NCBI GenBank assembly: GCA_902514805.1
Contig: CABXSF010000001.1
Span: 78,757 to 142,756, forward strand
Source: an uncultured Pelagibacteraceae bacterium
GTDB taxonomy: Bacteria > Pseudomonadota > Alphaproteobacteria > Pelagibacterales > Pelagibacteraceae
DNA length: 64,000 nucleotides
Direction of reading: 5' to 3'
Below, piece by piece: positions 2,846 to 63,827 of the stretch. The first letter of the stretch is position 1; every line of letters starts with the position of its first letter. A program made the position numbers and the translations under genes. Under the pieces are notes generated by a model. It worked only from the letters and a program-made list of their open reading frames with translations, had not been told where the DNA came from and did no database searches.

Positions 2846-3466
2846 ATGAAAAATAAGTTGGATTATATTATAAAAAAAATTAAGCACATAGATAAAATTC
2901 AAATACTAGAATTAGGTGTCCAATATGGATTTTCAACTAAAAAATTTATTGAATTATGTAATTCAAATAATGGTTTTATAACTTCAGTTGATATCAAAGA
3001 TTGTTCAGATGTAATTAAAAGTGATAGATGGAAATTTATTCATTCTAGTGATGATAATTTCGAAAAAGTTGATAAATTTATTACAACAGATTTAGACTTC
3101 ATTCTTATAGACTCATTGCACGAGCCAAACCATGTAGAAAAAGTTTTTTACCATTATTACAATTTCCTTAAAAAAGGAGGTATTTGTATAATCGATGACA
3201 TAAGTTGGCTTCCTTATTCTAAAAATCAGTGGAGAGACAGAGAATTTAGTGAGTGCATTAACAGATCTACATTCAAAAAGATTCTTGAAATATTCAATCA
3301 GAATCAAAAAAAATTTGATTTAGAGTTCTATTTTAAAGACTCTGGATATGCTATTATTACAAAAAACGAAGATAGTTCTTTAAATAAATCGAAAGAAATA
3401 AAGTCTAGAGAATTTGGGATAAAGAATTTACTGAGAAAAATTTATAAAAGAAAACCTAAAAACTAA
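2846..3466 (+). CDS. Class I SAM-dependent methyltransferase
   Basis: ILELGVQYGFSTKKF motif I, DFILIDSLHE, KKGGICIIDDI; Methyltransf_24 / CmcI-like layout. Confidence 0.65.
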   Translation: MKNKLDYIIKKIKHIDKIQILELGVQYGFSTKKFIELCNSNNGFITSVDIKDCSDVIKSDRWKFIHSSDDNFEKVDKFITTDLDFILIDSLHEPNHVEKVFYHYYNFLKKGGICIIDDISWLPYSKNQWRDREFSECINRSTFKKILEIFNQNQKKFDLEFYFKDSGYAIITKNEDSSLNKSKEIKSREFGIKNLLRKIYKRKPKN

Positions 3467-34311: not shown

Positions 34312-34896
34312 TTAATGTTCCAGTAGCTTTTCTACACCGTTGGTGTATTTTGAGAACCTTGATCTTGGAAAGGGAAAGTCCTTCATCAGTTCATTTAAAT
34401 CTTTTTTAAAAGAAGCTTTTAACTCAATTATTTGGTTTTTATCAATACCTAAAAATTTTCTGTACTTTGTAAAGTAATTTATATCATTATCTATGGTAAC
34501 TCTAATGTCTCTATATTTAAAATAATCTCTGGTATACTCAACATAAAGGACTGGCTTGCATGAGCCATAGTCTTTGTCGAAGAAACCCAAATTTTTCATA
34601 TTATTAGTTTTTTTTAAGTCTATTTGATTACTCGTTTTGTATCTACCCTCCGTACTAGATATTTTTATTTCTAAAAAATTTCTATCATCCTCGTATCTTC
34701 TCAATCTAATTTTTTTTCTTGGTAGACATCCTTCAATTGAGTCATTAAACATTTCAAATTTATCATTATCAAAATAAAGATTGTTGATTTTTCTTGTTTC
34801 GAAAATTTTGGAAGCCCCTTTTGATATCAGATATTCTTTAAACTCAGATAATTGATATTTATTTATCAAAAGTTTTTCTTCTATTCTAAAACTCAT
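34312..34896 (-). CDS. VTC-domain (polyphosphate polymerase-like) protein
   Basis: RIEEKLLINKYQLSEFKEYL, NNLYFDNDKFEMFNDSIEG, RKKIRLRRYED, FLEIKISS: VTC tunnel-fold signature. Confidence 0.78.
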   Translation of the reverse strand: MSFRIEEKLLINKYQLSEFKEYLISKGASKIFETRKINNLYFDNDKFEMFNDSIEGCLPRKKIRLRRYEDDRNFLEIKISSTEGRYKTSNQIDLKKTNNMKNLGFFDKDYGSCKPVLYVEYTRDYFKYRDIRVTIDNDINYFTKYRKFLGIDKNQIIELKASFKKDLNELMKDFPFPRSRFSKYTNGVEKLLEH

Positions 34897-34901
34897 AATT
34901 T

Positions 34902-37229
34902 TTATTTAATCATTGTATTCAAGGTTTTTATTTGTGAAAACTTATCTGTCTCAATATTACTTTCAGAATTCTCGCAGCTAAAATTTTCCACACTTATAAA
35001 ACCACCAAAAAATTCTTGTTTCTTTTTATATGCAGCTAAACAAATTTCTAGATTTTGTGAATTATTATCAATTACTTTTACAATAGATCCATCCTTAGAA
35101 GCTATTCCCATTTTTGAGTCTTTTATATTAATTTCATTCGTAGTCAGTATAGATCTCTCACCCACTGAAAGCGCTTTATCTCCACAATTACTTAAATTAA
35201 ATTGATTTATATCATAATTGCCGAAAGAGAAATCAGCACAATCATTTTTTGAATTATTTATATAAATATTATTTATATTTACTTTAGAAAAATCTAAATC
35301 AAGAGCGTCACTATACGCTTCAGTAATTTCAATTTCTTTAATCTCACCACTCGAGTTGATTAAATTGATAGTGTCTTCGCATGCTCCATTTGTACCTTTA
35401 ATTTTCACGTTTTCAAACTTTATATTTATAAAAGACAAGCAACCAGTAAGGCCGTAATCATTTATTGAGCTCGACTGTACTTTGTCAAATTCATTTACTT
35501 TCAAGCCAATAAAATTAATGTTAATTTTATTTAATCCCCCATTTATAAAGTAAGCTCTAGCAAAAGGAGTTTTTTGATAGACATCTAAATAATTTTTATC
35601 TTCATTATATTTAACCTCTATATTTTTATCATGATAAAAATCTGCATTTTTGACTCTTAATTTTTTGTAAGTATTATTTTGATTTTTTTTATTAAGATTT
35701 TCTTTTATACCAATGTATTGATAAATTGTATCATCTTTAACAAGTTCATCAGAAATTAATTTTAAAATTTCTTCTTTTTGAAGATTAATTTTTTCACATT
35801 TTAAATCTTCTATATTACATAATAAATAGTCTTCATTAAAATTATTATAAACAATTTTTAAATTTTTGTTTTCAGTCTTTGTTTTACGCAAAGCATCAAA
35901 ATAGTTTTCCACTAGCGTATTTTTAATATCCTCGGGTGCAAAATTTTTATTAGATACATATTTTTTTAAAATCATTAGATTATCTGATAATTTTTTGAAA
36001 AATAGCTCAACTTTATTTTTTGAGAGGTTTCCTCCCGACCCTAAGAACTTTTTATATAAACTACCTTTATCTAAATTTTGAATTTTTATATGGGCATTTT
36101 TTACATTTTCTAGATCAATAATTGTAAAATCATAATTCTTGTCATTAAACATTTCCATCTGGCTAACAGCTTCATCAATCACTATATCTCCGTCATAGTA
36201 AACTGGCTCAAAATACTCACCAAGTGAATTCCAATGAAACTTTCTATTGTGCGGAGACATTCCATGTCTTGCTCCTACAGCATACATTAAGGAGCTAAAA
36301 ACACCCAGTTTTTCTGATCCAACACTATTTTCGTTGCTTAAAACATTTTCGTTTAAATTATAATGCGAGATATTTACTGGACCTAATGTCATTTCCTCAA
36401 TCCATTTTAAATATACTTTATTTAGTTCAGTTAAAGCCTTATTTGATATTTGAAAGTGATTTTCAGATTTTTTGGCCCAATTAGAATTGGTAATTCTTGC
36501 AACCTGATTATCAAGTCCTGAATTAAAAAAAGGATTGTTATTTTCTAGAAAAGTGAACATATATCTCTCGCTTCCTTCTAAGAGCGGTCCCTCAACTCTT
36601 TTATTATATTCCAACATTTCTTTTCTAACTTTTTCCTGGAATAACATTTTTTTTTCAAGATTATTTACTTTTACATCCACTAAAAAAGTTCTAGGAGCTA
36701 GTATATCTATTTCTTTCAAAAATTTTGTAAAAAGTATTTCATAATTAGGATCTTTCCTTGTTTCTGGAATGAAAAGTTTAAAATCCACTATTCCGTTAAT
36801 ATTACCTTCATCTAGTTTTACATCTAAAGAGGTAAAAAAGTTTCCGTCGATTATTTGTATATGATCTTTAAGATCACCATGAAGCCTTATTCTACTTTCA
36901 TGTGAACAAACAATATTATCTTTATAATAAGCCTTAACAGTAGCTACGAATCTTCTTTTATTTTTCTTTTTTAAGACACTATTATTAGCAAATTGATTTT
37001 CTTTTTTTTCTCTTTCAACCAAAACTTCAAAAATATTTGAGTACCAATTTCTAGACTGTTTAATTTCAATTATAATATTTTCAGGTATTGAATTAAAAAC
37101 TTTTTGTGCTTGAGAATTATCTAAGTTAGAATAACAATTATTTTCTTGGGAATAAGAATAATTTGAAAAAAGAAAAAAAAAGAAAATTGTATTTATCAAT
37201 ATCAAACATTTTCTAAACATATGAGACAT
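34902..37229 (-). CDS. Exported CotH-kinase-like protein with C-terminal beta-helix-like repeats
   Basis: Signal peptide; ARHGMSPHNRKFHWNSLGEYFEPVYYDGDIVID CotH-like segment; C-terminal INLINSSGEIKEIEITEAYSDALDLDFSKVNI repeat character. Confidence 0.68.
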   Translation of the reverse strand: MSHMFRKCLILINTIFFFFLFSNYSYSQENNCYSNLDNSQAQKVFNSIPENIIIEIKQSRNWYSNIFEVLVEREKKENQFANNSVLKKKNKRRFVATVKAYYKDNIVCSHESRIRLHGDLKDHIQIIDGNFFTSLDVKLDEGNINGIVDFKLFIPETRKDPNYEILFTKFLKEIDILAPRTFLVDVKVNNLEKKMLFQEKVRKEMLEYNKRVEGPLLEGSERYMFTFLENNNPFFNSGLDNQVARITNSNWAKKSENHFQISNKALTELNKVYLKWIEEMTLGPVNISHYNLNENVLSNENSVGSEKLGVFSSLMYAVGARHGMSPHNRKFHWNSLGEYFEPVYYDGDIVIDEAVSQMEMFNDKNYDFTIIDLENVKNAHIKIQNLDKGSLYKKFLGSGGNLSKNKVELFFKKLSDNLMILKKYVSNKNFAPEDIKNTLVENYFDALRKTKTENKNLKIVYNNFNEDYLLCNIEDLKCEKINLQKEEILKLISDELVKDDTIYQYIGIKENLNKKNQNNTYKKLRVKNADFYHDKNIEVKYNEDKNYLDVYQKTPFARAYFINGGLNKININFIGLKVNEFDKVQSSSINDYGLTGCLSFINIKFENVKIKGTNGACEDTINLINSSGEIKEIEITEAYSDALDLDFSKVNINNIYINNSKNDCADFSFGNYDINQFNLSNCGDKALSVGERSILTTNEINIKDSKMGIASKDGSIVKVIDNNSQNLEICLAAYKKKQEFFGGFISVENFSCENSESNIETDKFSQIKTLNTMIK

Positions 37230-37827
37230 CTATTTTAGTAATCTCATTTCTTTCTTTAATAGAATCTTTAAAACTATTAAGTTCTTTAGAATTTTCAAAA
37301 GATAATCTATAAATATACTCATTTGAGTCTTTTAGAACTACCATGTTTTTAATATTTTGGTTTTTTTCAATATCTTCCATTGATTTAGATGAATATATCT
37401 CAATTGTATTAAGTGACATGCCTTCATTAAATGAGACATTATAAAAAGGTTTGCTAAAAAATTTTTTTAAAATAAACTGGCTTAGTCTTGTGCCACCTAT
37501 TACTAACAAACATGTCGCGACCAAAATATAAGCAAAATCCATATTTACACTTGCCGCAATTCCGATTGTAATTAAAACAAAATACATTACCAATTCTAAT
37601 GCGCTTTTAACTGGATTACGAAATCTTACAATTGACAAAGCACCAATCATTCCGAGTGATAATGCGATGTTGCCCGTTATTGTTTTAGTTATTACGTATG
37701 TTACAACCGGTAAAATTAGAAAAGCTATAGTTTGTTGGTATGTTTTAACCCAATTTTGACCAGTTATACTCAAGGAGAATCTTAGGACTAATCCTGAGAG
37801 TATTAAGAAAATGATATTTTCAACCAT
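37213..37827 (-). CDS. DUF4956 membrane protein
   Basis: Several TM segments and GMIGALSIVRFRNPVKSALELVMYFVLITIGIAAS, characteristic of DUF4956. Confidence 0.8.
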   Translation of the reverse strand: MVENIIFLILSGLVLRFSLSITGQNWVKTYQQTIAFLILPVVTYVITKTITGNIALSLGMIGALSIVRFRNPVKSALELVMYFVLITIGIAASVNMDFAYILVATCLLVIGGTRLSQFILKKFFSKPFYNVSFNEGMSLNTIEIYSSKSMEDIEKNQNIKNMVVLKDSNEYIYRLSFENSKELNSFKDSIKERNEITKIDVSYV

Positions 37828-45121: not shown

Positions 45122-46561
45122 ATGTCAGAAAAAATGCTCAAATTTGTGGAAATAGGTCAACAGAATCCACCTAAAAGGAAAACTGATTCCCGGAAAGAGG
45201 ATTTTAATGAGATTTATAAAGAGTTCATTCATGAAGGCGCTAAAGAACAATCAAGCAGATGCTCACAATGTGGTGTTCCTTTTTGTCAAGTTCACTGTCC
45301 TTTAAGTAACAATATTCCAGATTGGTTAAAACTTACAGCTGAAGGAAGATTAGAAGAGGCTTACAATTTAGCTCAAAGTACAAATAATATGCCAGAAGTT
45401 TGTGGAAGAATTTGTCCACAAGATAGATTGTGTGAAGGGAATTGTGTTATCGAACAGTCCGGTCATGGCACGGTAACGATCGGATCTGTTGAGAAATTTA
45501 TAACTGACAATGCTTGGGATAAGGGTTGGGTAAAACCAATCAAAGTCGAGAGGGAATTAACTCAAAGTATAGGAATCATTGGATCTGGACCTGCAGGTAT
45601 GGCTTGTGCCGAGCAGCTTAGAAAAAAGGGTTACCAAATAACTATTTACGATAGATATGACAGAGCTGGTGGATTGTTAATATACGGCATACCAAATTTT
45701 AAGTTGGAAAAACATGTTGTCGAGAGAAGAACAAAGCTTTTACAAGATGGTGGTATTAAATTTGTTTTAAATTTTGAAGTTGGAAAAGATGCATCATTAA
45801 ACGAACTGAGGGAGAAGCATGATGCAGTTTTAATTTCTACTGGTGTTTATAAACCAAGAGAAATTGAAATTGAAGGTAGTGATTTGAATAACATTTATCC
45901 TGCGATGGAATTTTTGACTGCATCAAATAAAAAAGGTCTTGGAGATAAGGTTGAAAATTTTGACAATGGATCTCTAAATGCAAAAGATAAAGACGTTATT
46001 GTAATTGGGGGTGGTGATACAGCAATGGATTGTGTAAGAACTGCAGTAAGACAAAAAGCTAAATCAGTAAAATGTTTATATAGAAGAGATAAAGAAAACA
46101 TGCCTGGTTCATCAAGAGAAGTTGCGAACGCGGAGGAAGAGGGAGTTAAATTTGTTTGGTTATCTAGTCCAAAAAAGTTTTTAGGTAAAAATAAAATAGA
46201 AAGAGTTTCTGTAGATAAAATTAAACTTGGAGATCCTGATGAAAGTGGAAGAAGAAAACCCATCATTCAAGAAAATTCCGTTTTTGAATTAAAAGCAGAC
46301 ATGGTTATAAAATCATTAGGTTTTGATCCAGAAGATCTTCCAACTTTATTTGGAGAGAATAAGCTACAAGTTTCAAGATGGGGGACGATTAAGATAGACT
46401 TCGATACAATGGAAACAAATATAAGTGGTGTATTTGCAGCGGGAGATATAGTGCGAGGAGCATCTTTAGTTGTTTGGGCTATAAAAGATGGAAGAGATGT
46501 AGCTGATAATATTGATAAATATTTAAAAAACCAAAAAGCTAATAAAAAAAAAGTTGCATGA
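45122..46561 (+). CDS. gltD: Glutamate synthase small subunit
   Basis: CSQCGVPFCQVHCPLSNNIPDWLKL, IGSGPAGMACAEQL, VFAAGDIVRGASLVVWAI. Confidence 0.95.
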   Translation: MSEKMLKFVEIGQQNPPKRKTDSRKEDFNEIYKEFIHEGAKEQSSRCSQCGVPFCQVHCPLSNNIPDWLKLTAEGRLEEAYNLAQSTNNMPEVCGRICPQDRLCEGNCVIEQSGHGTVTIGSVEKFITDNAWDKGWVKPIKVERELTQSIGIIGSGPAGMACAEQLRKKGYQITIYDRYDRAGGLLIYGIPNFKLEKHVVERRTKLLQDGGIKFVLNFEVGKDASLNELREKHDAVLISTGVYKPREIEIEGSDLNNIYPAMEFLTASNKKGLGDKVENFDNGSLNAKDKDVIVIGGGDTAMDCVRTAVRQKAKSVKCLYRRDKENMPGSSREVANAEEEGVKFVWLSSPKKFLGKNKIERVSVDKIKLGDPDESGRRKPIIQENSVFELKADMVIKSLGFDPEDLPTLFGENKLQVSRWGTIKIDFDTMETNISGVFAAGDIVRGASLVVWAIKDGRDVADNIDKYLKNQKANKKKVA

Positions 46562-49500
46562 AAAAAAAAGAATTAAAAAAGATAAACGAGTCTCAAATTT
46601 TAATTGTTGGATTAGCAAGAAATTGTGCGAAGACAATTGAAAAAGAAATTTACAATATCGATAAATCCTTTTCTGGATTTAAAAAAAAAAACTGGTTTAT
46701 AGTAGAGTCCGACAGTAACGATGAAACTTTAGAAAAATTGAAGTCCATCAATGGTATTGAAAATTTCAATTTTAAAAGCTTAGGAAAATTAAAAGATAAG
46801 ATTCAAAAAAGAACTGAAAGAATTGCTTACTGCAGAAATTATTACCTTCAAGAGCTTGAAAACAATGAAAAGTTTAAAGATGTAGACTTTCTGGCAACAG
46901 TGGACCTTGATGGTGTAAATAATTTATTAACAAACGAAGCTGTTATAAGTTGTTGGCAAATGAATAATGAATGGGATATGTGCTCTGCGAATCAATCGGG
47001 ACCGTACTACGATATTTGGGCTTTAAGGCATAAAAAATGGTCTCCTAACGATTGCTGGAAAGAAGCAAGAGAACTTTTGAATGGCGGCATGAGAGAAGAT
47101 TTGTGTGTACATCAAGCAGTTTACTCAAAGATGATATCAATACCTGAAAAATCCAATCCAATAGAGGTAGAGTCTTCTTTTGGAGGTTTAGCAATTTATA
47201 AAAGAGAATTGTTTTTAAAGAAAAGATATCATGGTCTTGATAAAGATGGAATTGAAGTATGTGAACATGTTGAAATGCACGAGAAAATGAAAAAAAATGG
47301 TGCAAAACTTTTTATTAATCCAAAATTGATAAATTGTAAACTTACCGAACATTCAAAATATATTCCGCTAAGAACAAAAAATCTTGATACTCTAAAAAAG
47401 TATGGGGTGTACAATGAAAGTATGGAGCATGACGCCTGTGGCGTAGGACTTGTTTCTTCCACGGATGGAAAAAAATCTCGAAAAGTGGTCGAATATGGTA
47501 TTGAGGCACTTAAAGCTGTTTGGCATAGAGGAGCTATTGATGCTGATGGAAAAACAGGGGATGGAGCAGGAATTCATTTAGAGATTCCCTCAGATTTTTT
47601 TATTGAAAAAATTGAAACCACCGGACACAAACATGACAATTCTGATGTTTGTGTTGGAATGATATTCCTCCCTAGAAATAACTTTATAGCACAAGAAAGT
47701 TGCAGAACAATCGTTGAAAGTGAACTAACAAAGGGTAATTTCAGTATTTATGGTTGGAGGCAAGTACCTGTTGATCCATCAGTTTTAGGTGAAAAAGCTA
47801 ATTCGAATAGACCCGAAATTACTCAAGTATTGTTTAAACATGTGGATAAATCTCTTAAGGGTAAATCTCTTGAAGTTAAACTTTATGAGGTTAGAAGGAA
47901 AATTGAAAAAAATATATTACTAGAGAACCTTAAGGATTTTTACATTTGTTCATTTAGTTCTAAATCTATAATTTATAAAGGTATGTTCCTCGCAGAGTCT
48001 CTCTCAGATTTTTATTCAGATCTTAAAGACCCTAGGTTTATATCTAGGTATGCAATTTTTCATCAAAGATTTTCCACAAATACGGCTCCAAGTTGGGATC
48101 TAGCTCAACCTTTTAGAGCATTAGCACACAACGGTGAAATCAACACATTAAAAGGAAATATAAATTGGATGAAAGTTCACGAGGAAGAAATGTTCAGTCC
48201 AGTTTTTGAAGATATTGAAAATTTAAAACCAGTAATTCCAAGTGGAAATTCCGACTCTGCTTCATTAGATAATGTTTTTGAATTATTAAATGTTTCAGGT
48301 CAACCCGCTCCATTAGCAAAACTAATGTTAATTCCTGATGCATGGTCTAAAAAAAGTAAAGTACTGCCAGCAGATCATCAAAAACTATTTAACTTCTTAA
48401 ATAGTACAATGGAACCTTGGGACGGACCTGCTGCAATTGCAGCTACAGATAACGAATGGGTAATAGTTGCTACAGATAGAAATGGTTTAAGACCAATGCG
48501 ATATACAATTACAAAAGATAACCTACTGTTTGCTGGGTCCGAGACTGGAATGATTAAACTTAATGAAAAAAAAATTATATCAAAAGGGCGATTGGGCCCG
48601 GGTGAAATATTGGGAGTAAGGTTAGAAAAAGGAAAGATATTTGAAAATACAGAGATTAAAAATTATTTAGCAAAGGAATACAAACATTTTAATAACCAGA
48701 TAATTGACTTAGACAAAAAATTTCCTATCAAAAATGAAACAAATTTATTTAAAGGTGATCAACTAAGAAAACTTCAGTATTGTTTTGGATATAGTCTAGA
48801 AGACCTTGAATTGATACTTCACCCAATGGCTGAGGATGCAAAAGAAGCAACAGGGTCAATGGGTGATGATACCCCACTTGCGGTCCTATCTAATAAATAT
48901 AGACCCTTGTATCATTTTTTTAGACAAAATTTTAGTCAGGTAACCAATCCCCCAATTGACTCGTTGCGAGAAAATAAAGTTATGAGTTTAAAAACAAGGT
49001 TTGGAAATCTCGGAAATATTTTAGATTTTAATAATCTTACTGAGGAAAATATTTACGTATTAAACAGTCCAATATTATCAAACAAACAGTTTGAAAAGTT
49101 TGTTTCTTTTTTTGACAAGAACAATCAAGTTTTAGATTGTACTTTTACAAATGAAGAAAACATCGAGTCTTCTCTTGAAAGATTGAAAAAAGAGGCTGAA
49201 GTTTTAGTAAGACAAGGGATAACGCAACTAATTTTAAGTGATAAAGAAGTTTCTAAGGACAAGTACCCAATTCCTATGCTTCTATGTATTGGTGCTGTTC
49301 ATACTCATCTTATCAAATTGAAGTTAAGGGGTTATGTTTCAATTAATGCTCAAACGGGTGAAGCGCTAGATACCCACTCTTTTGCAACTCTTATAGGAGT
49401 TGGAGCTACTACAGTTAACCCTTATTTAGCATTAGACAGTCTTTACCAGAGATTTGAAAAAAAATTATTTGGAAAGTTTATTTATGATGATTGTGTTGAA

Positions 49501-51855
49501 AGATATGTAAAATCCGTAAATTTAGGCCTTTTAAAAATAATGTCAAAAATGGGTATTTCTGTAATTAGTTCTTACAGAGGAGGATGTAATTTTGAAACTG
49601 TAGGATTAAGCAGAACAATTGTTAATGATTTTTTTCCTGGTGTTACCTCTAAAATTTCAGGTATCGGACTTACAGGGATTGAAAAAAAAATAAGAGGCAT
49701 TCATAAGGAGGCTTTTAAATCTGACACAAACGTGTTGCCAATAGGAGGAATTTATCGATATAGAAAAAATGGTGAGACACACCAATACCAAGGTAAACTA
49801 ATACATTTGCTTCAATCGGCAGTTACAAACAAATCTTATGAATTATATAAAAAATACTCTAAAGGAATATATGAGTTACCCCCTATAAATTTAAGGGACT
49901 TAATTGATTTCAAGAAAAAAAATACAATTAGCATCGATGAAGTGGAACCAGTTGAGAATATCTTAAAACGTTTTGGAAGTGGAAGTATGTCTCATGGAGC
50001 ACTATCAAAAGAAGCTCACGAAACACTAGCTATTGGAATGAATAGAATTAAAGGAGCATCTTGTAGTGGAGAAGGTGGTGAAGATGAAAAAAGATTTCAA
50101 ATTCAATCCAATGGAGATAGTGCTAATTCAAGAGTGAAACAAATAGCATCCGCAAGATTTGGAGTTACAATTAATTATTTAAATAACTGTAACGAGATAG
50201 AAATTAAAATCGCACAAGGCGCTAAACCAGGAGAAGGTGGACAGTTACCCGGATTTAAGGTCACAAAAGAAATTGCCAGATTAAGACATTCTACTCCTGG
50301 GGTGACTTTAATATCGCCACCTCCTCATCATGACATTTACTCAATTGAGGATTTGGCCCAATTAATTTATGATTTAAAACAGATAAATCCTAAAGCACGT
50401 GTTGGTGTAAAACTTGTTGCATCTTCTGGTATTGGTACTATTGCAGCAGGAGTTGCAAAGGCAAAAGCTGATATAATTTTAATTTCTGGGCATAATGGTG
50501 GAACAGGAGCTACTCCTCAAACTAGCGTTAAATACGTTGGAATACCTTGGGAGATGGGATTAACCGAGGCAAATCAAGTTTTAACGTTAAATAATTTAAG
50601 ACATACAGTTACATTGAGGACAGATGGTGGAATTAAAACTGGTAGGGATGTTGTCATTGCAGCCATGATGGGAGCAGAAGAATTTGGCGTAGCAACAACT
50701 GCTTTAGTCGCTATGGGATGTATTATGGTAAGGCAATGTCATTCAAACACGTGTCCAGTGGGTGTTTGCACGCAAGATGAAAAATTGAGAGAAAAGTTTA
50801 ACGGAACTCCTGACAAGGTAGTAAATTTGTTTACATTTATAGCTCAAGAGGTGAGAGAAATTCTGTCTGAACTTGGATTTAAATCTTTAAACGAAATAAT
50901 TGGAAGAACAGATCTCTTAAGGCAAGTGAGCAAAGGATCTCCTAATTTGGATGATTTAGATCTGAACCCTCTTTTTGTAAGAACGGATCCTGGTAAAAAC
51001 AAAAGATACTGTGAAAAACAAATAATAAATTTTGTACCAGACACTTTAGACCAGAAAATTTGGCCTGAGATAAATAAAAAAATTGATAACAATGAAAAAA
51101 TTGAAAAATCCTATCAAATTGAAAATACCCATAGAGCTGTAGGCACACGTATTTCATATGAATTATATAAGAAATATAATAATGCAAAATTAAACGACGA
51201 CCACCTAACCCTAAATTTTGAAGGATCTGCGGGACAATCTTTTGGTGCATTTGGAATCAAAGGACTTAAATTAGTTTTGAGCGGAGATGCAAATGATTAT
51301 GTTGGGAAAGGATTATCAGGAGGTAAAATAGTAATTAAGCTAAGCAAAGAAAGTAATTTGATTTCTAAAGACAACACAATTATTGGTAACACAGTTTTAT
51401 ATGGAGCAACTTCAGGAAAATTATTCGCGGCTGGACAAGCAGGGGAAAGATTTGCTGTAAGAAATTCGGGAGCAACAGCTGTAATTGAAGGATGTGACTC
51501 AAATGGTTGTGAATACATGACAGGGGGAAATATAATTATTTTAGGAAATACTGGAGATAATTTTGCTGCTGGTATGACGGGTGGTATGGCTTTTATTTAC
51601 GATAATGAAAAAGAATTTGAAAAAAGAGTTAATCCCGAAAGTGTAATTTGGCAAGGTGTTGAAACAAAATTTTGGCAGGAATTTTTAAAAAAAATTATTG
51701 AAGAACACTTTCATGAGACAAATTCAAATGTTTCTAAAAAAATACTAGAAAAATTTGATACAGAGATACAAAATTTTATTCAAGTTTGTCCAAAAGAAAT
51801 GATCGACAAACTTGAAAATCCTATTACAAATAAAATCTCTAATTTCGCAAGTTAA
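46558..51855 (+). CDS. gltB: In-frame fusion: CAP59/GT69-like glycosyltransferase (residues ~1-275) + glutamate synthase large subunit (nucleophile Cys294)
   Basis: One uninterrupted 1765-codon frame. N-terminus ILIVGLARNCAKTIEKEI...RTERIAYCRNYYLQEL...DFLATVDLDGVNN...YYDIWALRHKKW; from residue 289 MEHDACGVGLVSS and full GltB (CSNTCPVGVCTQ, GHNGGTGATP). Confidence 0.92.
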   Translation: MKKKELKKINESQILIVGLARNCAKTIEKEIYNIDKSFSGFKKKNWFIVESDSNDETLEKLKSINGIENFNFKSLGKLKDKIQKRTERIAYCRNYYLQELENNEKFKDVDFLATVDLDGVNNLLTNEAVISCWQMNNEWDMCSANQSGPYYDIWALRHKKWSPNDCWKEARELLNGGMREDLCVHQAVYSKMISIPEKSNPIEVESSFGGLAIYKRELFLKKRYHGLDKDGIEVCEHVEMHEKMKKNGAKLFINPKLINCKLTEHSKYIPLRTKNLDTLKKYGVYNESMEHDACGVGLVSSTDGKKSRKVVEYGIEALKAVWHRGAIDADGKTGDGAGIHLEIPSDFFIEKIETTGHKHDNSDVCVGMIFLPRNNFIAQESCRTIVESELTKGNFSIYGWRQVPVDPSVLGEKANSNRPEITQVLFKHVDKSLKGKSLEVKLYEVRRKIEKNILLENLKDFYICSFSSKSIIYKGMFLAESLSDFYSDLKDPRFISRYAIFHQRFSTNTAPSWDLAQPFRALAHNGEINTLKGNINWMKVHEEEMFSPVFEDIENLKPVIPSGNSDSASLDNVFELLNVSGQPAPLAKLMLIPDAWSKKSKVLPADHQKLFNFLNSTMEPWDGPAAIAATDNEWVIVATDRNGLRPMRYTITKDNLLFAGSETGMIKLNEKKIISKGRLGPGEILGVRLEKGKIFENTEIKNYLAKEYKHFNNQIIDLDKKFPIKNETNLFKGDQLRKLQYCFGYSLEDLELILHPMAEDAKEATGSMGDDTPLAVLSNKYRPLYHFFRQNFSQVTNPPIDSLRENKVMSLKTRFGNLGNILDFNNLTEENIYVLNSPILSNKQFEKFVSFFDKNNQVLDCTFTNEENIESSLERLKKEAEVLVRQGITQLILSDKEVSKDKYPIPMLLCIGAVHTHLIKLKLRGYVSINAQTGEALDTHSFATLIGVGATTVNPYLALDSLYQRFEKKLFGKFIYDDCVERYVKSVNLGLLKIMSKMGISVISSYRGGCNFETVGLSRTIVNDFFPGVTSKISGIGLTGIEKKIRGIHKEAFKSDTNVLPIGGIYRYRKNGETHQYQGKLIHLLQSAVTNKSYELYKKYSKGIYELPPINLRDLIDFKKKNTISIDEVEPVENILKRFGSGSMSHGALSKEAHETLAIGMNRIKGASCSGEGGEDEKRFQIQSNGDSANSRVKQIASARFGVTINYLNNCNEIEIKIAQGAKPGEGGQLPGFKVTKEIARLRHSTPGVTLISPPPHHDIYSIEDLAQLIYDLKQINPKARVGVKLVASSGIGTIAAGVAKAKADIILISGHNGGTGATPQTSVKYVGIPWEMGLTEANQVLTLNNLRHTVTLRTDGGIKTGRDVVIAAMMGAEEFGVATTALVAMGCIMVRQCHSNTCPVGVCTQDEKLREKFNGTPDKVVNLFTFIAQEVREILSELGFKSLNEIIGRTDLLRQVSKGSPNLDDLDLNPLFVRTDPGKNKRYCEKQIINFVPDTLDQKIWPEINKKIDNNEKIEKSYQIENTHRAVGTRISYELYKKYNNAKLNDDHLTLNFEGSAGQSFGAFGIKGLKLVLSGDANDYVGKGLSGGKIVIKLSKESNLISKDNTIIGNTVLYGATSGKLFAAGQAGERFAVRNSGATAVIEGCDSNGCEYMTGGNIIILGNTGDNFAAGMTGGMAFIYDNEKEFEKRVNPESVIWQGVETKFWQEFLKKIIEEHFHETNSNVSKKILEKFDTEIQNFIQVCPKEMIDKLENPITNKISNFAS

Positions 51856-63017: not shown

Positions 63018-63827
63018 ATGATATATGATTGTTTCTCTTACTGGGATGAAGATTTACTTTTAGATTTAAGACTAAACATTTTAGATAAAATTGTAGATCG
63101 TTTTGTAATTGTTGAAGGAGATAAAACTTGGCAAAACAATCCAAAAAAACTTAAGTTTGACGTTAAAAAATTCCAAAAATTTAAAGACAAAATTATTTAT
63201 ATTCCCGTAACAGACTTGCCAGATGGTGAAGATCCATATTTACGTGAGAACCATCAAAGAAATTCAATTTCAAAAGGTATAAAAGATGCAAATGAAGATG
63301 ATATTATTTTAATTTCAGATTTAGATGAAATTCCATGTCCAAAAGCCGTTAAAAATTTTGACCACAAGATGAGATATGCAACTTTCAAACAAAAACATTT
63401 TTATTACAAATTCAATCTGCAAAGTAAAAGCTATCCTTATTGGTATGGTTCAAGAGTTTGTATAAAAAAATATTTAAAATCACCTCAATGGTTAAGGGAC
63501 TTAAAATTTAAAAAAAGACCATTTTGGCGTTTAGATAAGTTCAGACTAAATAACATTATTAGCGATGGTGGTTGGCATTTTTGTAATTTAAAAACTCCTG
63601 CAGATTTATTGTATAAATATAAAAATTTATGTGAAACAAATGATCCAATACATTTTAAAGAGCGTATTGATCCCAAATATCTTCAAATAGATGAAATACA
63701 AAAAAAAATTATTTCAGGGGAGGATATAATTGGCAGAAAAGATAATTTTGAAAAAATTGAATTAGATTATTCTTTTCCAGAGTATTTAATCAAAAATAAA
63801 GAAAATTATAGTGATTGGATAATTTAG
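63018..63827 (+). CDS. GT17-like glycosyltransferase
   Basis: MIYDCFSYWDEDLLLDLRLNILDKIVDRFVIVEGDKTWQ...DDIILISDLDEIPCP...GGWHFCNL resembles family 17. Confidence 0.83.
   Translation: MIYDCFSYWDEDLLLDLRLNILDKIVDRFVIVEGDKTWQNNPKKLKFDVKKFQKFKDKIIYIPVTDLPDGEDPYLRENHQRNSISKGIKDANEDDIILISDLDEIPCPKAVKNFDHKMRYATFKQKHFYYKFNLQSKSYPYWYGSRVCIKKYLKSPQWLRDLKFKKRPFWRLDKFRLNNIISDGGWHFCNLKTPADLLYKYKNLCETNDPIHFKERIDPKYLQIDEIQKKIISGEDIIGRKDNFEKIELDYSFPEYLIKNKENYSDWII

Follow-up and report, generated by a model that had tools for sequence, protein, structure and literature searches.

A glycosyltransferase fused in frame ahead of the glutamate synthase GltB propeptide in Pelagibacteraceae: a probable self-cleaving polyprotein

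The GT-GltB reading frame

In a stretch of 64,000 nucleotides from an uncultured Pelagibacteraceae bacterium (hereafter the window; contig CABXSF010000001.1, positions 78,757 to 142,756, assembly GCA_902514805.1), the gene for glutamate synthase GltB is preceded, in the same open reading frame (ORF), by a glycosyltransferase (GT). The frame starts with an ATG that overlaps the stop codon of gltD by four bases (ATGA) and, judging by its sequence, codes for a complete GT-A glycosyltransferase (residues 1 to ~267) followed by a complete GltB. The first-pass annotation, made from the letters of the window, had described a stop-free frame at 46558-51855 with this overlap, containing a GT and a complete GltB, with the cysteine at residue 294 and a mature part of 1472 amino acids (aa); the ORF, a Pfam scan and an alignment with PDB entry 1ea0 bear out both the coordinates and the description. 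The features of the locus are listed below, with G numbers designating genomes and L numbers loci.

45122-46561, + strand: gltD, glutamate synthase small subunit, partner of GltB (Fer4_20 and Pyr_redox_2 domains)
46558-51855, + strand: GT-GltB fusion ORF, ATG start, 1765 aa, no internal stop
46558-47358, + strand: glycosyltransferase domain, residues 1-267, GT-A fold (PF11735, AlphaFold2 model, Foldseek)
46903-46911, + strand: presumed DxD motif (metal/nucleotide sugar), D116-L-D118, of which D116 is invariant across the 16 aligned homologues
47359-47436, + strand: retained GltB propeptide and junction, residues 268-293 (YIPLRTKNLDTLKKYGVYNESMEHDA), which line up with MNKLRKKNLDLLKKSGVYHESMEHDA, the propeptide of unfused relatives such as G016
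47422-47424, + strand: internal ATG (Met289), alternative start; an internal codon also in nearly all unfused relatives
47437-47439, + strand: codon of Cys294, predicted N-terminal nucleophile, with predicted cleavage Ala293/Cys294 (aligns with residue 1 of chain A of PDB 1ea0 and 2vdc)
47437-51852, + strand: mature GltB, 1472 aa (Pfam, NF008730, alignment with 1ea0)
46200-49240 (approximate), + strand: block holding the fusion junction, with higher divergence from G201, G168 and G183 than the sequence on either side (about 0.4 at third positions, compared with 0.1-0.2 in the flanks; L046, L067, L068)
Cleaved GT-GltB product (predicted): semi-tryptic peptide CGVGLVSSTDGK

A Pfam scan of the fusion identified CAP59_mtransfer (PF11735) in the N-terminal part and, after it, GATase_2 (residues 294-709), Glu_syn_central, Glu_synthase and GXGXG. 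The four GltB domains (PF00310, PF04898, PF01645 and PF01493) occur in order, all with E ≤ 1e-78, the GltB part scores 1726 bits against NF008730 (cut-off 1047), and gltD adjoins the gene, in keeping with its assignment to GltB. In alignments with the mature GltB chains of Azospirillum, 1ea0 and 2vdc, Cys294 falls on residue 1, and the 1472 residues from Cys294 to the stop match chain 2vdc_A exactly in length; the alpha subunit of Azospirillum, when mature, spans residues 1-1472, with Cys1 at the glutaminase site (PMC8097209). The fusion therefore resembles GltB (NF008730; PDB 1ea0, 2vdc, 6s6s) in its four domains, the CGVG context of the cysteine, the adjacent gltD, the length of the mature protein and a conserved propeptide, but it differs in having 293 residues before the cysteine, with a whole GT upstream of the propeptide, against about 25-37 residues in the unfused relatives read. 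This departure from the usual short propeptide concerns the precursor only.

The family name of the GT is tentative, because the domain alone scored 31.0-31.2 bits with PF11735, close to the gathering score of 28.8 (25.4 in the full-length scan); several of its relatives also match Glycos_transf_2. The AlphaFold2 model of residues 1-273 (predicted local distance difference test, 89.9; predicted template modelling score, 0.89), in which confidence falls off at around residue 261, retrieved with Foldseek ColGalT1 (best match, E 1.5e-9), Mnn9 (3.2e-8), TarP and RmlT, with template modelling scores of 0.5-0.6, at which the model indicates a clear GT-A fold without fixing the subfamily. In an alignment of 16 homologues the fused copies keep D116 and every other invariant column, and a catalytic role of D116-L-D118 is presumed by analogy with GT-A enzymes. 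The domain is like CAP59-like (PF11735, GT69) and GT2-like GT-A enzymes in its PF11735 score above cut-off, its DxD-like motif and its fold.

Other relatives of the GT are 27-46% identical and occupy separate frames of 261-330 aa; unlike these stand-alone relatives in the genus, the fusion has the GltB propeptide in place of their short basic C-terminal tail. The nearest one (46% identity; L047:7944-8825, minus strand, in G326) is a single gene between typA-like and groEL-like genes, named by reading, and another near one sits in a small cluster (G278). These varied sites suggest that the GT is an accessory gene landing at different places. A viral origin was considered and rejected, as no relative was found among IMG/VR viral contigs or INPHARED phages; the sole match from a scan of genome contigs was a partial one (41%), in a Clostridium metagenome-assembled genome. 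Elsewhere in the window, a glycosyltransferase-like gene with a DLDEIP motif (63018-63827) and a methyltransferase-like gene (2846-3466) stand alone next to housekeeping genes, after lepA-like and pnp-like ones; all these names were given by eye, and neither of the two lone genes had an NCBIfam match.

Insertion ahead of the propeptide and conservation of the fusion

In the nearest unfused relatives (G016, G069 and G035) gltB likewise begins at an ATGA shared with the stop codon of gltD; the protein starts with MNKLRKKNLDLLKKSGVYHESMEHDAC and has a propeptide of 25 residues. There is thus neither a gene nor a spacer at the insertion site in unfused relatives, gltB beginning at the gltD stop. 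Aligned with them, the fusion keeps the propeptide (LRxKNLxxLKKxGVYxESMEHDA) almost whole, from LR onward, directly before Cys294. By this alignment the GT follows the gltB start site and precedes the propeptide; its separate start and stop, and the short tail of its stand-alone relatives, are no longer distinct. The first-pass annotation had the GT taking the place of the propeptide, an idea that the normal propeptide still lying between the GT and Cys294 rules out.

In five close unfused siblings (G049, G183, G008, G141 and G168; L005-L009) the GltB propeptide has 37 residues, and gltB starts with GTG without overlapping gltD. The additional part of this propeptide, KKINLKL, is weakly similar to KLINCKL at the C-terminus of the GT, a likeness that is not significant (p about 0.05-0.15); a GT remnant in these sequences is possible.

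In a genus-wide search GltB was matched in 168 of 201 genomes, and the window alone showed an open frame of 1769 aa, nearly all the other GltB open frames listed being of 1500-1557 aa or shorter. A search of 399 genomes of the genus with only the GT part identified a second fusion, which lies in an open frame of 1768 aa in G201. From its ATGA overlap this fusion (L046:10795-16092) codes for exactly 1765 aa and aligns without gaps with that of the window; the architecture is the same and the junction reads KLTEHSKYIPLRTKNLDTLKKYGVYNESMEHDAC in the window and KFTDHSKNISLRIKNLENLKKHGVYHESMEHDAC in G201. The first-pass annotation had proposed looking for the same fusion in relatives, and G201 is the one further case among those covered. 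No third fusion appeared in further draws from the genus, which overlapped the first, or in a draw from the order, and among the 150 genomes with GltB that a phylum-wide draw of 160 contained, no open frame reached the length of the fusion. The three longer frames read out from this last draw (G701, G705 and G677) have propeptide-sized starts (Met at -36, -29 and -29) behind unrelated read-through, and a long N-terminal extension as a general trait of GltB was accordingly discarded. A search of the open-access literature found no paper on such a GT-GltB fusion. The AT-rich genomes, of 0.9-1.4 Mb, are in keeping with an assignment to SAR11/Pelagibacterales.

The GT parts of the two fusions are 76% identical in amino acids, with a proportion of synonymous differences (pS) of 0.71, a synonymous divergence (dS) of about 2 and a ratio of nonsynonymous to synonymous divergence (dN/dS) of about 0.066. 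This ratio is 0.036 for the propeptide and junction and 0.028 for the glutaminase part, which is 92% identical; all ratios were obtained by the Nei-Gojobori method and are rough, the synonymous sites being near saturation. Differences in the leader fall mostly in third codon positions (50, 26 and 129 at positions 1, 2 and 3). The retention of 76% identity at near-saturated synonymous sites, with dN/dS about 0.07, indicates that the GT is under purifying selection, and the comparison likewise points to selective maintenance of the fusion in two species (G000, that of the window, and G201). Over the 293-codon leader, the other two frames contain 29-33 stops each and, since the same fused frame occurs without indels in G201, an open leader frame by chance can be dismissed.

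Both fused genomes are incomplete and in multiple contigs, which would allow for an assembly or sequencing artefact, or for a recent and functionless loss of a stop codon, as the first-pass annotation had considered. We regard either as ruled out for practical purposes: two species share the same architecture and junction at near-saturated synonymous divergence, with low dN/dS and no indels. Additionally, what the unfused relatives have at the site is neither a GT gene of its own whose stop could disappear nor a spacer to be lost, and synonymous change since the fusion is close to saturation, hence the event cannot be recent.

Translation and maturation of the fused product

The reading that we favour, with a probability of roughly 0.66, is that, in a SAR11-like lineage, a GT gene entered gltB just past its start site, in frame and ahead of the part coding for the propeptide; that GT and GltB would be translated as one polypeptide from the gltD-coupled start; and that this polypeptide would be cut autocatalytically at Ala293/Cys294, as in class II amidotransferases. 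The products would be a mature GltB of 1472 aa and a GT of 293 residues carrying the propeptide as a C-terminal tail. In this way the GT would gain the expression of the gltBD operon, and maturation of the N-terminal nucleophile (Ntn) type would resolve the polyprotein. Translation as one chain, cleavage and the activity of both products are here inferred from sequence.

In class II amidotransferases the few residues before the cysteine are reported to be lost autocatalytically (PMC9140057). The fusion is like this maturation (MEROPS C44) in having a removable peptide before the catalytic cysteine, for which autocatalysis is expected (PMC9140057), and unlike it in that the leader is a folded enzyme instead of a few residues, cleavage being here a prediction from the sequence. 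Since the glutaminase domain, the cysteine and the propeptide are all under selection, cleavage before Cys294 is the simplest reading. The first-pass annotation had already proposed a self-cleaving polyprotein; the conserved GT-GltB fusion and a Cys294 that must be exposed make this still the best reading, once the GT is no longer taken as a substitute for the propeptide. No second gltB was detected in the window genome or in G201 (assemblies 70% and 74% complete, respectively), so the fused gene presumably supplies GltB in both.

Several observations weigh against this reading. Being only 70% and 74% complete, the two genomes may yet hold an additional, unfused gltB; the fused sequences number only two, with no finished genome of a cultured strain among their sources; the stop-free run over the 27 junction codons is only mildly informative, because such a run is expected in about 13-37% of cases without constraint; and Met244 and Met289 are conserved and are possible internal starts.

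This last point leads to the strongest rival, in which an internal start, at Met289 (47422) or Met244, would yield GltB alone, the fused frame being incidental or a minor product. Both methionines are in frame and conserved in the two fusions, and the main start also lacks a strong ribosome binding site. Nevertheless, nearly all unfused relatives also have Met289, as an ordinary propeptide residue, so that its conservation is not specific to a start, and initiation there would discard propeptide residues 271-288, which are still close to the unfused propeptide despite near-saturated synonymous sites; moreover, there is no stop between GT and GltB in either genome. Initiation at 47422, offered by the first-pass annotation as an alternative to cleavage, is thus weakened by the methionine being conserved in unfused gltB too and by the upkeep of the propeptide upstream of it, and we consider internal initiation unlikely, although a real possibility.

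Somewhat less probable still is that the fusion stays uncleaved, or is cleaved only in part, and works as a bifunctional enzyme or a complex-bound GT, with the glutaminase lost and free ammonia used. The sequence offers no proof of cleavage, and ammonia-dependent glutamate synthase activity is known for GltS, which speaks in its favour. In contrast, strong purifying selection acts on Cys294, on the propeptide and on the whole glutaminase domain (dN/dS of 0.028 for GATase), which implies that the N-terminal cysteine is still in use.

Movement of the fused allele and its significance

Third-position divergence of the window from G201, G168 and G183 starts at 0.11-0.23 in gltD, steps up to about 0.4 three quarters of the way along that gene and stays there across the GT and ~480 codons into mature gltB; by codon 600 of mature gltB it is about 0.27, and thereafter mostly 0.03-0.28. 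There is no such step between G201 and the unfused G168 and G183. The window therefore likely carries a block of roughly 2.5-3 kb, including the fusion, that came from a more distant donor by homologous recombination, and fused alleles appear to move by this route through gltD and gltB. Since divergence in the block is close to that between subclades (window versus G035), the fusion is not young. In trees of the GltB N-terminus and of GltD, both fused genomes group with the five unfused siblings G008, G049, G141, G168 and G183, a topology that fits either one gain with loss or spread by recombination. At another site of the window (34312-37827), three minus-strand genes (VTC-like, CotH-like and DUF4956-like, by eye) lie between genes that are adjacent in G201 (L046), in what looks like a strain-specific insertion.

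The first-pass annotation had further seen in the fusion a one-to-one tie between glycan synthesis and nitrogen assimilation. A polyprotein would certainly fix the ratio in which both products are synthesized, but nothing about the substrate or pathway of the GT speaks for a link between glycans and nitrogen, the fusion is rare, close siblings have neither the fusion nor a GT in this position, and elsewhere, in unrelated places such as that between typA and groEL, GTs of this kind occur by themselves. Deliberate coupling as a regulatory device is thus very improbable and this tie is unsupported; the pattern fits a mobile accessory gene that landed in an expressed operon, and hitch-hiking on the expression of gltBD is a simpler explanation of the layout that needs no metabolic link.

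Two unrelated proteins translated as one and split by proteolysis are known from the self-resolving fusions Nup98-Nup96 and ubiquitin-ribosomal protein, from which GT-GltB would differ in being split by a metabolic amidotransferase through its Ntn maturation. In eukaryotic GOGAT, too, a long presequence stands before the cysteine nucleophile and is removed; it is a targeting peptide or propeptide, whereas the leader of GT-GltB is a second enzyme. The fusion is real, conserved and rare, and is a variant of GltB with Ntn-type maturation, not a new kind of system. More broadly, we see about an even chance that obligatory Ntn autoproteolysis serves a bacterial operon as a built-in, self-cleaving linker that releases an unrelated accessory enzyme made in one chain with a housekeeping enzyme, the fused allele spreading from strain to strain by homologous recombination via its gltD and gltB flanks.

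With a folded enzyme of 267 residues before an ordinary propeptide, the fusion is a natural test of the size of leader that an Ntn amidotransferase can remove. If cleavage occurs, GT-GltB would be a naturally evolved bacterial polyprotein resolved by its own metabolic enzyme, and it would represent a route by which accessory glycosylation genes that bring no promoter, start or stop may be built into a core operon when the genome is streamlined.

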